From contig NZ_CP061170.1 in assembly GCF_011751745.2 (NCBI RefSeq), positions 124,001 through 188,000 of the forward strand: DNA of 64,000 bases. The letters run 5' to 3'. Source of the stretch: Paramicrobacterium fandaimingii. GTDB taxonomy: Bacteria > Actinomycetota > Actinomycetes > Actinomycetales > Microbacteriaceae. Below, piece after piece: positions 40,707 through 63,897 of the stretch. The position numbers and the translations under genes were made by a program. Below the pieces are notes generated by a model that was not told the DNA's origin, did not search any database, and saw only the letters and a list, made by a program, of their open reading frames with translations. How positions within the stretch are numbered: position 1 is the first letter of the stretch; each line of letters begins with the position of its first letter.

Positions 40707-41288
40707 CTATGCCTCAAGGCGGTCGATGAGTTTCAGACCTCGCCGTGCCCACGCGATCTCGCTGCGAGCTCGATCGACGAGACCCTCGTAAGCGAAATAC
40801 TTGAATGCGACGGTGCGTTCCCTGTCTTCTGCCGGTGTGGCCTCGAGGCGACGTACGAGCATCGGGCTCGTGATGGCTTCGATGCGGCGCAGCTCGCTCT
40901 CCCACTGGTCAAACTCGCCCTGCCACTGCTCGATGTGATTCTCGAGGAAGGAACGCGCGGCTTCGGGTGTCGTCGCTTCAAGGTATGCGGCGCGCACGTG
41001 CGCGGGGTCGCGTACTCGGTGGTAGACCATGGGCGAGGCCATCCACTCGAGGAATGCGCGGTCGCCGGCCTCGGTCACGTGGTAATTGCGACGCGTCCGT
41101 CGGGCCCCGCGCTCTTCCACCTCGCCCTCAATGAGCCCCTCGGTCTCCATCTTGCGCAGCTCAGGGTAAATCTGGGAGTCAGGCGCGTGCCAGACGTGAC
41201 CGACGGATTGCGAGAACTGTTTGGCGAGGTCGTAACCCGAAAGTGGGCCGACGCGAAGGATCGCGAGCAATGCATACCTGAGGCTCAC
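40707..41288 (-). CDS. PadR-family regulator, last gene of the metF-purU-ligM operon
   Basis: A 193-residue PadR protein: YALLAILRVGPLSGYDLAKQ, HAPDSQIYPELRKMETEGLI and the C-terminal helical domain that mediates dimerisation. PadR proteins typically repress phenolic-acid genes and respond to hydroxycinnamates, which fits the aromatic context. The GTG at 41288 follows GGAG; the longer frame to 41393 overlaps the ligM-like gene. It lies 80 bases after that gene on the same strand. Confidence 0.88.
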   Translation of the reverse strand: MSLRYALLAILRVGPLSGYDLAKQFSQSVGHVWHAPDSQIYPELRKMETEGLIEGEVEERGARRTRRNYHVTEAGDRAFLEWMASPMVYHRVRDPAHVRAAYLEATTPEAARSFLENHIEQWQGEFDQWESELRRIEAITSPMLVRRLEATPAEDRERTVAFKYFAYEGLVDRARSEIAWARRGLKLIDRLEA

Positions 41289-41368
41289 GGGATGCTCCGT
41301 TCGATGAGGTAGCGCGAGGAGGCTCGGCCGGATCGACCGAGCCTCCTCATGCCGCGAGGCGAATGTCG

Positions 41369-42778
41369 CTACTGCTGGTATCCGGTGCGCCATCCACCCT
41401 GGTAGGTCTGGCGGGCGACAGTCGAGTATGGCACGGGGCTGACGACAGCGCGGACGTTTGTCTGCTCGTGCGGCTCGACGGATGCCTTCTTCGTGCCGCC
41501 GTGCGGCTCGCCCCAGACAACGCTGAGCTCGGTGCCCTCGGGAACGTCGTGATCGACCGTTGCAAGCGAGAGCCCGCGCCGCTCATTCGCGCTGTAGCCG
41601 GTGAACATCGAGAAGCCAACGACGGTGCCGTCTGCATCCACAACCGAGTCATAGTTCGCCGATCCGTAGTTGGCGAGCGGAAGGTCGAAGAACTTGTAGT
41701 TCGGCCCGTCGACGTTCAGCGGCGACGTCAGGATCTTGCCAAGATCGTCTCCATCCCACGCGAGGGTGACCTTCTTGCGCTGTGTCGAGGGGTCGATCTT
41801 CTCGAGAGCATCCCGGCCGATGAAGTCATGGTCGAACTTGACGAAGTTGCCATAGCCGAGCTCCCACGGCGAGAGGTAGTAGTCGGCGATGTCGTCGGAG
41901 ACGAACGAACCGGCGAGGGTTCCTGTCGCCTCGTAGCCGTCGGCCGGAAGCCACTCGCGGTAGGAACGCTCGGCCTCACCCGTGTAGATCGCGGGAAGCG
42001 GGGAGGGAATCCAGCCCGACTCGAGGGTGTTCGACGGGTACGCGCGGGAGCCGACGGGAACGAGGCCGAACTCGGCACCCGCCTCGACGATCGCCGTCCA
42101 CATGCGGTCGTGGTCCGCGTACGGTCCCCAAATCTCGAGCCCCGGGGCTCCGGCCATGCCGTGGCGAAGCGTGCGAACAGTCGTGCCGTCGATCGTCATC
42201 GTCGACATATTGAAGAACTTCAGCTGCTCGAGCGGGCCGCCGTTGAGCTTCTCGATCACCTGCCACGCGTTCGGTCCCTGAATCTGAAAGCGATAGTATT
42301 TTCGCTCTACGGAGTGGCCGTATGGCCGCGAGGGTGAGCGACGGTCGACCGTGATGTCGAGGTTCGGGTAACCGCCGGTCGCACCGTGGAACATCAGCCA
42401 GTTGGCTGCGGGTGAGCGACCGACGTAGGTGTATTCCTCTTCGGCCTCGCGAAAGAGGATGCCGTCGCCGATCACGTGGCCGCCTTCGGTGGTTGGCACA
42501 TACTGCTTCGCCTTGTTGACGGCGAAGTTTGCCACCGAGTTGATCGCGGTGTCGGAGATGAGCCGAATGGCGTCGGAGCCCTTCAGCAGGATGTTGTCCA
42601 TGTGGTGCGACTGGTCGTAGAGCACGGCAGTATCACGCCATGCTTTCTGCTCCTTGATCCAGTTTTGGAAGTCGGCAGGCACGACGGGGTAGATGTATGA
42701 GCCGATCTGGGAGTTGCGCAGAAGATCGACGGCGTTGCCCGCCTGATCAAGCACGTCCTGAAGATTCTTCGCTGCCAT
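41369..42778 (-). CDS. ligM: LigM/DesA-like tetrahydrofolate-dependent aryl O-demethylase
   Basis: A 469-residue GcvT-fold aminomethyltransferase-like protein. The length and the motifs [36 protein letters not shown] and [15 protein letters not shown], together with the end [18 protein letters not shown], mark the LigM/DesA branch. These enzymes move the aryl-methyl group of vanillate, syringate or 3-O-methylgallate onto tetrahydrofolate. The neighbours metF and purU handle the resulting methyl-THF, which strongly supports this role. ATG at 42778 is used; no good ribosome-binding site is visible. A paralogue with about two thirds identical residues is encoded at 60899. Confidence 0.8.
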
Positions 42779-42805
42779 GAGATGAACCAATCTGTAGGTG
42801 GGAGT

Positions 42806-42822
42806 CGCCGGTGGTTCCGGCG
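42806..42822 (-). other. short intercistronic hairpin
   Basis: CGCCGG-TGGTT-CCGGCG forms a 6-bp stem in the 57-base gap between purU and the ligM-like gene. It may stabilise or differentially process the operon mRNA. Confidence 0.4.
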
Positions 42823-42835
42823 CCTGGGTTGTGGG

Positions 42836-62299: not shown

Positions 62300-62321
62300 C
62301 GGTCGGCGCGAGTTCGCGAGT

Positions 62322-62984
62322 TCAGTCGAGGGAACGCAACGCGGCAATGACGCTCTTCAGGTGCGTCTCGACGGCGTTCCGCGCGGCATCCGGATCGCGC
62401 GCGACGATCGCGTCGATGATCGCCGCATGCTCGAGCACCGACACCTTTGCTCGGCGTGGGCGCCCAGACAACTTGAACTGATGGCGAACGCTCTGAGCGT
62501 GCAGCCGTTCGATGACGGCGGCGGCTGTGGCGTGTTCGCTAATCTCGCGAACGCGAAGATCAAGCAGCTGGTTCAGGCGCGAGTACTCGACCAGATCGCC
62601 CTCGGAGACGGCGGTGATCATTTCCTCCCGCAGCTGCGCAAACTCGTTCTGCTGCGTGTCGGTGATGCGTTCGGCCGCTTTCGCCGCGCACAGGCACTCG
62701 ACTCCGATGCGCACCTCGAGGATCTCGATGGCCTCCTCAAGTGAGACGGCTCGCACACGGGAGCCGCGGTTGGGGAGGCGCTCGACGAGTCCTTCATTGG
62801 CAAGGCGCAGGAGGGCTGTGCGAACTGCGGCGCGACTTGCAGAGAACGTGGCGCTCAGATCGGCCTCGATGAGCCGTTGGTTTGGTGCGTACTCGCCGCG
62901 GACGATCACACCACGAATCAGCTCCGTCACGCGCTGCTCGGCGCCGGAGATACCGTCGCGATTCTCGTTGACGACCGTCGACAT
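62322..62984 (-). CDS. GntR-family regulator (FadR/FCD subfamily)
   Basis: A 220-residue protein with an N-terminal GntR winged HTH (RLIEADLSATFSASRAAVRT; ALLRLANEGLVERLPNRGSR) and an FCD ligand-binding domain (YSRLNQLLDLRVREISEHAT, VLEHAAIIDAIVARDPDAAR) with its metal-binding histidines. FCD members often bind organic acids. It lies convergent to the second ligM-like gene and divergent from the dehydrogenase gene. GGAGTG precedes the ATG at 62984. Confidence 0.9.
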   Translation of the reverse strand: MSTVVNENRDGISGAEQRVTELIRGVIVRGEYAPNQRLIEADLSATFSASRAAVRTALLRLANEGLVERLPNRGSRVRAVSLEEAIEILEVRIGVECLCAAKAAERITDTQQNEFAQLREEMITAVSEGDLVEYSRLNQLLDLRVREISEHATAAAVIERLHAQSVRHQFKLSGRPRRAKVSVLEHAAIIDAIVARDPDAARNAVETHLKSVIAALRSLD

Positions 62985-63036
62985 GGATACACTCCTCCGC
63001 TGCAGCTAACGCAACCGATATAGAACCTACGCCATT

Positions 63037-63048
63037 ATTGTCTACAAC
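63037..63048. promoter_or_regulatory. candidate GntR operator, gntR/dehydrogenase intergenic region
   Basis: ATTGTCTACAAC contains the inverted repeat TTGT-CT-ACAA (63038-63047), the kind of site used by FadR-type GntR regulators. It lies between the divergent GntR and dehydrogenase starts. Confidence 0.55.
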
Positions 63049-63114
63049 GCAGACCGGAACTCGTGAGCTGCGTGGCGGGACCGATGACGACGTAAGTCGG
63101 GTGGGGAGGAAATC

Positions 63115-63897
63115 ATGCGCATTGCGGTGCTCGGGCTCGGAGAGGCGGGGAGTATCTACGCATCGGATCTTGCGGGCACCGGGGAGGTCGTGACCGCTGT
63201 CGATCCCAATGCGGGGGAGATTCCGAGGGGCGTCGTGCGCGCGGCGACCATAGCGGATGCCGTTGACGGAGCCGATCTCGTGCTGAGCCTCGTCGGAGCC
63301 GGGGCCGCCGAACACGTGCTCGACGACGCGCTGCCCGCGATGACGACCACGGCGATTTTTGCAGATCTGAATACCGCGGCGCCCGCTGCTGAGCGGGCGT
63401 GGGGTGTTCGGGCAGCCGCGAGCGGCGTCGGGTTTGCCGACGTCGGGGTTCTCGCGCCGGTACCGCGGAAACGGCTTGCGACGCCGCTCATCGTGAGTGG
63501 CGACAGGGGCGAGAGGCTCGTCGAGATGCTCACTCAGCTGGGCATTCCAGCCACGCTCGTCGGCGGGGAAGCCGGCGACGCAAGCTGCCTGCGGATGGTG
63601 CGCAGCGTGTTCATGAAGGGGCTCGCCGCACTGGTATTCGAGACCGCAGAAGCCGCAGAACACGTCGGTGCACGCGAGTGGGCTCTCGAGCAGGTTGCGG
63701 CGGAATTGGGAACAGGAGGAGAGGCCCTTGTGGAGCGCATGCTCACCGGAACAGCGAGGCATGCGGTGCGGCGTGAGGCCGAGATGCAGGATGTGCAGAA
63801 ACTTCTGGAAACCTATGGCGCCCGTCATCCGATGACTGACAGCACGATTGACTGGCTGCAGACCATTGCCAACAGGACACCGCACGAGAGTTCCTGA
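63115..63897 (+). CDS. NAD-binding beta-hydroxyacid dehydrogenase-like protein with DUF1932
   Basis: A 260-residue protein. The N-terminal Rossmann motif is IAVLGLGEAGSIYASDLAGT, as in 6-phosphogluconate/beta-hydroxyacid dehydrogenases, and the C-terminal helical part (SCLRMVRSVFMKGLAALVFE) matches DUF1932. It may oxidise or reduce a hydroxyacid that arises in the aromatic pathway. The substrate is unknown. GGGAGGAAATC precedes the ATG. Confidence 0.8.
   Translation: MRIAVLGLGEAGSIYASDLAGTGEVVTAVDPNAGEIPRGVVRAATIADAVDGADLVLSLVGAGAAEHVLDDALPAMTTTAIFADLNTAAPAAERAWGVRAAASGVGFADVGVLAPVPRKRLATPLIVSGDRGERLVEMLTQLGIPATLVGGEAGDASCLRMVRSVFMKGLAALVFETAEAAEHVGAREWALEQVAAELGTGGEALVERMLTGTARHAVRREAEMQDVQKLLETYGARHPMTDSTIDWLQTIANRTPHESS

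Follow-up and report, generated by a model that had tools for sequence, protein, structure and literature searches.

The window analysed here is the 64,000-nucleotide stretch at positions 124,001 to 188,000 of contig NZ_CP061170.1 (C1) from Paramicrobacterium fandaimingii, a member of the Microbacteriaceae. Two neighbouring gene units for the breakdown of aromatic acids lie at positions 40707–63897 of the window. Unit A (40707–55516) comprises the O-demethylase gene LigM1, PurU, MetF, an ABC transporter and genes for CoA-dependent side-chain shortening, and unit B (57158–63897) is a dioxygenase module with a second demethylase gene, LigM2. We consider it quite probable that these are two linked catabolic units, in which unit A takes a phenylpropanoid acid to protocatechuate and on to cleavage by PcaGH, and unit B takes 3-O-methylgallate to gallate and then, through a VOC-fold dioxygenase, to 4-oxalomesaconate (OMA). 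It is also reasonably likely that this dioxygenase belongs to a second, unrelated family of gallate dioxygenases, in which the catalytic His of a VOC-fold enzyme has become Tyr. Its members would be spread over actinobacteria, alpha- and gammaproteobacteria and Thermus, as a rule within a compact OMA operon and sometimes with a tannase-family gene.

The proposed gallate dioxygenase, a type I extradiol enzyme, is encoded at 57158–58117 on the minus strand. It matches Glyoxalase/VOC and type I models only, and not the LigB-superfamily fold, and it combines the VOC fold with a 2-His-1-carboxylate site (ligands H156, H219 and E270). Its score against the catechol 2,3-dioxygenase model TIGR03211 (295.1 bits) is under the cut-off of 320.2, and most of its relatives in the records examined go by the name of catechol 2,3-dioxygenase or of VOC family protein. 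At the position of His200 of homoprotocatechuate 2,3-dioxygenase (HPCD), which we take to be the conserved second-sphere acid-base and catalytic His of type I enzymes, the window enzyme has Tyr202. Tyr occupies this position in 58 of 59 alignment rows (window counted) and in all 17 further relatives, and His is found there in all six paralogs without OMA genes as well as in L132, 3lm4 and MndD. The best PDB sequence match, 9wgj (351 bits), has Tyr at the same place and was named catechol 1,2-dioxygenase by its depositors. Compared with the type I enzymes MndD/HPCD and AphC, which belong to another pathway setting, the changes are His200 to Tyr, Arg243 to Ser and Arg293 to Gly. One related copy (L013:8914-9870), whose locus lacks lower-pathway genes, carries Arg in place of one of the metal ligands and has probably decayed; stop codons were counted within the matched dioxygenase stretch in G290, G612, G454 and G685, where they may reflect decay, errors in sequencing or the search itself. 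A relative with 69% identity (P0085) has a protein record named Corynebacterium glutamicum, and no dioxygenase match was found in the phage collection.

The dioxygenase gene shares one gene run in the window with a gal-type set of OMA tautomerase, OMA hydratase and CHA aldolase, and the set is conserved elsewhere. The GalD/LigU-like tautomerase/isomerase of the PrpF family (58158–59222, minus strand) just misses the cut-off of NF033377 (427.4 bits against 440), and its best PDB match is the oxalomesaconate isomerase 6p3j (341.9 bits). The RraA-type CHA aldolase/oxaloacetate decarboxylase (59226–59939, minus strand; likely start 59939 in an ORF that extends to 60170) passes NF006731 with 299.8 bits (cut-off 179) and misses TIGR02798 ligK_PcmE with 268.6 bits (cut-off 304.5). 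The PIG-L-family hydratase at 59936–60709 (minus strand) is GalB-like, with 260.3 bits to the 4-oxalmesaconate hydratase 5cgz and 36.3 bits to the next PDB match. The order GalB, aldolase, GalD and dioxygenase, divergent from LigM2, recurs widely. The ring-cleavage and OMA lower-pathway genes that the first-pass annotation had read from this Microbacteriaceae genome are indeed present.

The module was compared across the best 80 named loci around LigM2 relatives, of which 67 with at least 19 kb were counted and 13 shorter ones left out. A dioxygenase of at least 45% identity is present in 41 of the 67 loci, accompanied by GalD in 38, the aldolase in 34 and GalB in 28; among the 26 loci without it, the corresponding numbers are 4, 15 and 10, with an aldehyde dehydrogenase (ALDH) in 5. 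The gene for an NAD-binding/DUF1932 protein that closes unit B in the window (63115–63897, plus strand; PF03446, PF09130) has a relative of at least 40% in 23 of the 41 dioxygenase loci and in none of the 26 others. Such 6PGDH-like/DUF1932 dehydrogenases recur with the dioxygenase module in both actinobacteria and proteobacteria (also L117, L118, L123, L128, L130). A tannase/feruloyl-esterase family gene accompanies the dioxygenase in 3 of the 41 loci (L011 by Pfam; L022 and L047 by tblastn) and is found in none of the 26 loci without it. A window-like ALDH (at least 55%) occurs in 16 of the 41 loci, and no ALDH of at least 45% in the other 25, two of which (L019 and L033) carry a 38% ALDH. 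Ring cleavage that gives OMA without aldehyde oxidation is textbook chemistry for gallate, and the company of OMA genes, mostly without an ALDH, therefore fits gallate cleavage.

A similar picture was obtained beyond the family. The dioxygenase is present in 17 of 393 relatives of a class-wide sample, and all carriers outside the window's family gave 14 stretches of about 15 kb each. The aldolase is found in all 14, GalD in 13, GalB in 10 and a tannase-family gene in 2, and neither an ALDH nor a LigM was detected in any of these stretches. In two of the loci, L176 (seven ORFs) and L183 (three ORFs), the ORFs scanned with Pfam included MFS transporters and a GntR regulator, with no dehydrogenase among them. 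We also examined 12 plasmid stretches with a 50–60% dioxygenase relative, chosen from 294 matching records, and 11 of them carry the CHA aldolase, the OMA tautomerase or both. The module on an Agrobacterium pAt plasmid includes a tannase-family gene. On a Pantoea piersonii plasmid, the VOC protein is accompanied by the tautomerase, the aldolase and an aromatic acid transporter, and one gene there bears the name galB.

Both LigM1 (41369–42790, minus strand) and LigM2 (60899–62299, plus strand) are LigM proteins, as judged by the NCBIfam equivalog and by phylogeny. They pass NF047885 (cut-off 580) with 867.7 and 898 bits, match the PDB entries 5x1i (729.6 bits) and 5tl4 (702.6 bits), and share 67.5% and 64.7% identity with LigM of Sphingobium SYK-6 and 68% with each other. 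The first-pass annotation had named a grouping with GcvT or with dimethylglycine/DMSP demethylases as a refutation of its reading, but the GcvT and DMSP-demethylase models score below 90 bits for both proteins. The DesA model NF047633 (cut-off 800) is also missed (611.5 and 610.7 bits); a Novosphingobium protein (L137) used as a positive control passes it with 849.9 bits. In a quick tree of 71 rows, without bootstrap, the two proteins fall within the SYK-6 LigM clade (39 rows, SH-aLRT 100), each in an actinobacterial group of its own, apart from GcvT and from the L137 DesA protein; DMSP and dimethylglycine enzymes were not included, and the branches leading to the two outgroup rows from this genome are very long. 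The tree was built from 60 of 133 LigM-like sequences of the named loci (random draws of 18 from 39 and 14 from 50, and the first 16 listed of 24 and first 12 of 20), nine references and the two window proteins. Identity as GcvT, DMSP demethylase or DesA is rejected on the model scores and, for GcvT and DesA, on the tree. The motif SRAY(P/S)SNTLESG is common to LigM1, LigM2 and SYK-6 LigM, and its Tyr is presumably the catalytic Tyr247 of LigM. A further LigM-like subfamily, 45–49% identical to LigM2, lies near LigM2 in many Microbacterium loci (L012:12577-13929, and similarly in L009, L011, L016 and L022); the one member tested is under both the LigM and the DesA cut-offs.

The presence of LigM is patchy. 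Relatives of LigM2 are encoded at no fewer than 592 genome-contig places, the best 80 kept being all actinobacterial by title, and a LigM-like match was found in 25 of 397 family relatives (at 57% or more in 20) and in 2 of 395 relatives of a phylum sample at E<=1e-180. Four genomes of the same genus (G001, G085, G148, G199) have no match to LigM, the amidohydrolase, the ALDH or PF00775 at the limits used, which suggests that the island genes were acquired. Among the 20 family relatives with a LigM of at least 57%, 10 have a LigM that matches LigM2 at 73% identity or better, and 9 of these also have a dioxygenase of at least 60%, the sole miss being a genome that is 66% complete (G099); 4 of the remaining 10 have one as well. 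None of these 13 relatives has a LigB match above 200 bits (G036 and G234 have weak ones of about 100 bits); matches of that strength were seen in two genomes with LigM and without this dioxygenase, G032 and G146. The pattern looks like one fold replaced by another; in Microbacteriaceae the VOC enzyme may take the place of the class III enzyme that would act after LigM. As to the protocatechuate 4,5-cleavage (lig/pcm) pathway, the island ORFs scanned gave no match to a LigAB-type dioxygenase or LigC-type (GFO_IDH_MocA) dehydrogenase model, and the search of the rest of the genome was confined to LigB.

Unit A is conserved in its own right. Its order is PadR-LigM1-PurU-MetF, then substrate-binding protein, two permeases, ATPase and PaaX, then ligase-MaoC-acyl-CoA dehydrogenase-amidohydrolase-SDR, and finally MarR. 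This order is identical in two other Microbacteriaceae genomes, G304 and G385, and is kept in a third, G379, without the acyl-CoA dehydrogenase (ACAD), for which the gap separating the MaoC and amidohydrolase genes is too small; G164 has the parts in a looser arrangement. No dioxygenase of the window type was found in G304 or G385. Instead, both genomes have pcaG and pcaH at a distance of about 1 kb from unit A, on its MarR side, all four proteins passing TIGR02423 or TIGR02422, and P. fandaimingii has its own pcaG and pcaH at C1:2413888-2414813, passing both models. These neighbours make it most likely that the ring acid of unit A goes to protocatechuate and ortho cleavage. The single continuous route that the first-pass annotation had drawn across the island is therefore rejected: in G304 and G385, unit A has pcaGH as its neighbour and the dioxygenase is missing. 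The LigM1 block, the ALDH and the dioxygenase module directly adjoin one another in Agromyces (L016) and Arthrobacter (L020), so that in the window about 11 kb, from DUF3237 to MarR, sits between MetF and the ALDH. Since these gene orders recur in other genera, the island is not a chance assembly.

In the window, unit A begins with the PadR-family regulator (40707–41393, minus strand; PF03551, 57.7 bits), which adjoins LigM1 also in L020, G304, G385 and G379. LigM1, probably a vanillate O-demethylase dependent on tetrahydrofolate (THF), is followed on the minus strand by the formyl-THF deformylase PurU (42836–43744; TIGR00655, 350.6 bits, cut-off 285.95) and a MetF-like methylene-THF reductase (43719–44651), which has a weak match to PF02219 (35.7 bits, cut-off 24) and is below both NCBIfam MTHFR cut-offs shown. 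The genes for LigM-type demethylation and for one-carbon recycling are present as first annotated. The adjacent DUF3237 protein (44701–45168, minus strand; PF11578, 129.3 bits) is absent at E<=1e-3 from the matching stretches of G304, G385, G379, L016 and L020. Cobalamin-independent methionine synthase-like genes were observed near LigM or gallate modules in other loci (L011:2770-3882; L124 and L137 by annotation) and are a possible alternative sink for the methyl group.

The transporter and PaaX genes are on the plus strand. They encode an NMT1/SsuA-type substrate-binding protein (45328–46368; PF09084, 87 bits; TIGR01728 below its cut-off), a first permease (46440–47270; PF00528, 73 bits), a second permease (47267–48091), and an ATPase (48084–48884; PF00005, 118.4 bits) that is 86–87% identical in G304, G385 and G379. 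The second permease (ORF 47141–48091, likely start GTG at 47267) was recognised without a Pfam scan from homologs in the same place in these three genomes (64–73%). The PaaX-type regulator (48757–49749; PF20803, PF07848, PF08223) scores 94.3 bits against TIGR02277 and misses its cut-off of 264.55; its ORF overlaps the ATPase gene, and the real start is likely at about 48925.

The side-chain genes follow on the minus strand: an acyl/aryl-CoA ligase (49762–51285; PF00501, 310.4 bits; NF004837, 502.1 bits, cut-off 476), a MaoC-type enoyl-CoA hydratase (51379–51831; PF01575, 89.2 bits), the ACAD (51861–53051; PF00441, PF02770; ORF to 53153), a probable aryl-beta-ketoacyl-CoA hydrolase of the amidohydrolase family (53057–53944; PF04909 Amidohydro_2, 166.2 bits) and an SDR, a probable beta-hydroxyacyl-CoA dehydrogenase (53987–54937; PF00106, 153 bits; ORF to 55024). 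A MarR regulator (55013–55516, plus strand; PF01047, 44 bits) is divergent from them. The amidohydrolase, which we take to be of the CouO type, as we do the pathway, is 52.7% identical to a Rhizobium protein annotated as 4-hydroxyphenyl-beta-ketoacyl-CoA hydrolase, whose cluster also encodes a feruloyl-CoA synthase, an enoyl-CoA hydratase and a MarR regulator. It is 56.6% identical to a member of a Rhodococcus opacus row (L135) of amidohydrolase, ligase, SDR and MaoC, and has matches at E<=1e-60 in 18 of 29 relatives searched. The CouO-type set of CoA ligase, hydratase, SDR and amidohydrolase-family hydrolase is thus complete, in agreement with the side-chain shortening first proposed.

From these genes we infer the following substrates and order of reactions. 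The NMT1-type ABC transporter would import a phenylpropanoid acid and the ligase would form its CoA ester, which the ACAD would desaturate if it is saturated, the MaoC protein would hydrate and the SDR would oxidise. Hydrolysis of the beta-keto thioester by the CouO-like amidohydrolase would then release acetyl-CoA together with a ring acid, for example vanillate. LigM1 would transfer the methyl group to THF and yield protocatechuate, with MetF and PurU recycling the one-carbon unit, and protocatechuate would undergo ortho cleavage by PcaGH, encoded elsewhere in the genome. A PobA encoded past the window could convert the product of coumarate to protocatechuate. In unit B, LigM2, probably a THF-dependent 3-O-methylgallate O-demethylase, would supply gallate, which the VOC dioxygenase would open between two hydroxylated carbons directly to OMA, leaving no aldehyde to oxidise. 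GalD, GalB and the CHA aldolase would complete the route to pyruvate and oxaloacetate.

Three alternatives were weighed. Unit A could act on another methoxylated or methylenedioxy aromatic, such as a lignan fragment or a different plant phenylpropanoid, and LigM1 would then not be a vanillate enzyme. The superfamily does span sesamin and berberine demethylenases and dicamba demethylases, according to the available parts of PMC5547118 and PMC9404685, and a substrate is not readable from sequence. This alternative is nonetheless unlikely: LigM1 lies 288 bits above the LigM equivalog cut-off and within the LigM clade, and pcaGH beside unit A in two genomes indicates protocatechuate as the product.

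The second alternative turns on the ALDH at the junction of the two units (55568–57061, minus strand; PF00171, 394.5 bits; ORF to 57124), for which none of the 25 NCBIfam families shown reaches its cut-off. The dioxygenase could be a protocatechuate 4,5-dioxygenase, with the ALDH oxidising 4-carboxy-2-hydroxymuconate semialdehyde to OMA (enol) in a PDC-free manner, so that units A and B would form one route after all. The ALDH does share a gene run with the dioxygenase in the window, and it lies within 200 bp of it in 11 of the 41 named loci. The Thermus oshimai plasmid L125 combines a Tyr-type dioxygenase with a PIG-L protein, CHA aldolase, a divergent ALDH and a nearby 4-hydroxybenzoate 3-monooxygenase, and a Roseibium cluster also contains an ALDH. 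We regard this assignment as improbable because the genome has its own pcaGH, because pcaGH adjoins unit A in G304 and G385, and because the ALDH is often missing beside the dioxygenase: a window-like ALDH is absent from the 25 named loci and any ALDH from all 14 outside-family stretches, the five nearest dioxygenase rows are likewise without a window-like ALDH next to the gene (in L035 the distance is about 11 kb), and in G379 the ALDH closes unit A, 34 kb from the dioxygenase. The ALDH, first annotated as part of ring cleavage, is probably not a ring-cleavage step, and its role as the maker of OMA is rejected on the grounds of these absences and of its place in G379.

In the third alternative, the dioxygenase would act directly on 3-O-methylgallate, LigM2 would serve a side branch, and an esterase encoded away from the island would hydrolyse the resulting methyl ester. 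This would suit the divergent position of LigM2 and the ability of SYK-6 to cleave 3-O-methylgallate before demethylation, but it is very improbable given that no esterase model was met among the island ORFs scanned, that the sole Amidohydro_2 gene is CouO-like and that LigM is missing from the 14 outside-family stretches.

Several observations weigh against gallate as the substrate of the VOC dioxygenase, or against the evidence for it. The ALDH ORF ends 33 bp from the dioxygenase gene on the same strand (96 bp from the likely ALDH start), and in 11 named loci the two lie within 200 bp. Both GalD (NF033377) and the aldolase (TIGR02798) are under the cut-offs of these models. No DesA-like match was found in this genome to supply 3-O-methylgallate, and a LigB-family gene at C1:697 kb, though weak (97–114 bits), is a candidate gallate enzyme; same-genus G148, without LigM, also has a weak LigB-type gene. 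The outside-family sample draws 10 of its 14 stretches from one genus, lacks GalB in four, and in one contig (G770, the contig of L076, which L181 overlaps) has a LigM about 3 kb past the stretch end. Feruloyl esterases also belong to the tannase family, and only a minority of the loci show the linkage. On plasmid L127, the single exception among the 12, there are no OMA genes in range. Finally, the ALDH contexts of T. oshimai and Roseibium, whose ALDHs are 31 and 33% identical to that of the window, suggest that some members of the dioxygenase family may cut protocatechuate.

All the families named in the first-pass annotation could be recovered by Pfam and NCBIfam; the DUF3237 and DUF1932 genes and the continuation past the window had not been named there. 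Unit B is presumably controlled by the GntR-FCD regulator at 62322–62984 (minus strand; PF07729, 79.7 bits; PF00392), within whose gene two short GC-rich repeat pairs (62375–62406) were noted and not used. Several mechanically called ORFs begin too early, namely those of the aldolase, ACAD, ALDH, SDR and second permease. Beyond the window (L140:2000-8936, equal to C1:188000-194936) there is a Liv-type ABC transporter, followed by PobA with a neighbouring IclR regulator; PobA passes NF006091 (506.3 bits, cut-off 351) and misses the equivalog TIGR02360 (401.5 bits, cut-off 538.7). No tRNA was found in the window, and no inverted repeats in three of four stretches at regulator gaps. Promoter and terminator scans (7 sites against 2.8 expected, and 7 against 9.2 expected) were not used.

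The first-pass annotation had described LigM-type demethylation as best known from sphingomonads, and P450 or Rieske demethylases as typical of actinobacteria. That LigM would be new to actinobacteria is contradicted by the counts given above and by published actinobacterial LigM- and DesA-like proteins. PMC9296663 describes a LigM-type gene in a Micromonosporaceae metagenome-assembled genome and DesA-like genes in Solirubrobacterales, Thermoleophilaceae and Rubrobacter. THF-dependent demethylenases from Rhodococcus and Arthrobacter have been tested, and one from Sinomonas is cited as characterised (PMC5547118). The dicamba demethylase Dmt06 is identical to an actinobacterial protein and has relatives in Microbacterium (PMC9404685), and roles of LigM and DesA have been described in Novosphingobium (PMC8091115). 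A type II protocatechuate 4,5-dioxygenase is known from Pseudarthrobacter (PMC8431788), and a VOC protein occurs in an acetosyringone cluster, gallate being unmentioned in the available part of that text (PMC12911418). A keyword search of the open-licence literature, as far as its texts were available, gave no type I gallate dioxygenase. With actinobacterial LigM already published, the two LigM proteins add the Microbacteriaceae to the range of a known enzyme family, in a gene unit that recurs as one piece, and the point of most interest is the VOC-fold, Tyr-bearing dioxygenase as a probable second gallate dioxygenase family. If this is correct, a widespread family labelled catechol 2,3-dioxygenase opens gallate, and the breakdown of tannin and syringyl lignin has been overlooked in many genomes, above all those of actinobacteria. 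It would also be a clear case of two unrelated folds performing the same ring opening, and the His-to-Tyr change would make the role of the acid-base residue testable in a natural enzyme.

The island shares with pRop44186_a, a plasmid of Rhodococcus opacus DSM 44186, a LigM (72.8%), a second aminomethyltransferase, purU, metF, PIG-L and CHA aldolase genes, as well as a CouO-like module; the plasmid cluster differs in having an annotated class III extradiol gene where the window has the VOC dioxygenase. This plasmid (L139, L135) was seen to carry two LigM-like genes, purU, metF, pabB, a Mur ligase family gene, the class III dioxygenase, PIG-L, aldolase and the CouO-type module. The gal operon of Pseudomonas putida, with GalA, GalB, GalC and GalD, has in common with unit B the GalB-like hydratase (5cgz), an OMA tautomerase, a CHA aldolase and a regulator. 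P. putida GalA is a LigB-superfamily enzyme, as are the gallate dioxygenases assigned in the accessible part of PMC4250580, whereas the window has a type I VOC enzyme in that place. The LigM/DesA/MetF route of Sphingobium SYK-6 for syringate and vanillate, described in part in the available text of PMC6888825, resembles the island in its LigM equivalog, in THF chemistry, in forming protocatechuate and gallate, as proposed here, and in the OMA lower pathway. P. fandaimingii differs from it in that LigM is present twice and a DesA-like match is lacking, PurU is encoded next to MetF, protocatechuate probably goes through pcaGH, and a VOC enzyme would open gallate instead of DesB/LigAB. With the CouO/phdB-type side-chain pathway of actinobacteria for p-coumarate and ferulate, unit A shares the CoA ligase, hydratase, SDR and amidohydrolase-type beta-ketoacyl-CoA hydrolase; unlike it, the window module includes an ACAD, PaaX and MarR, together with an ordered junction to LigM1, PurU and MetF.

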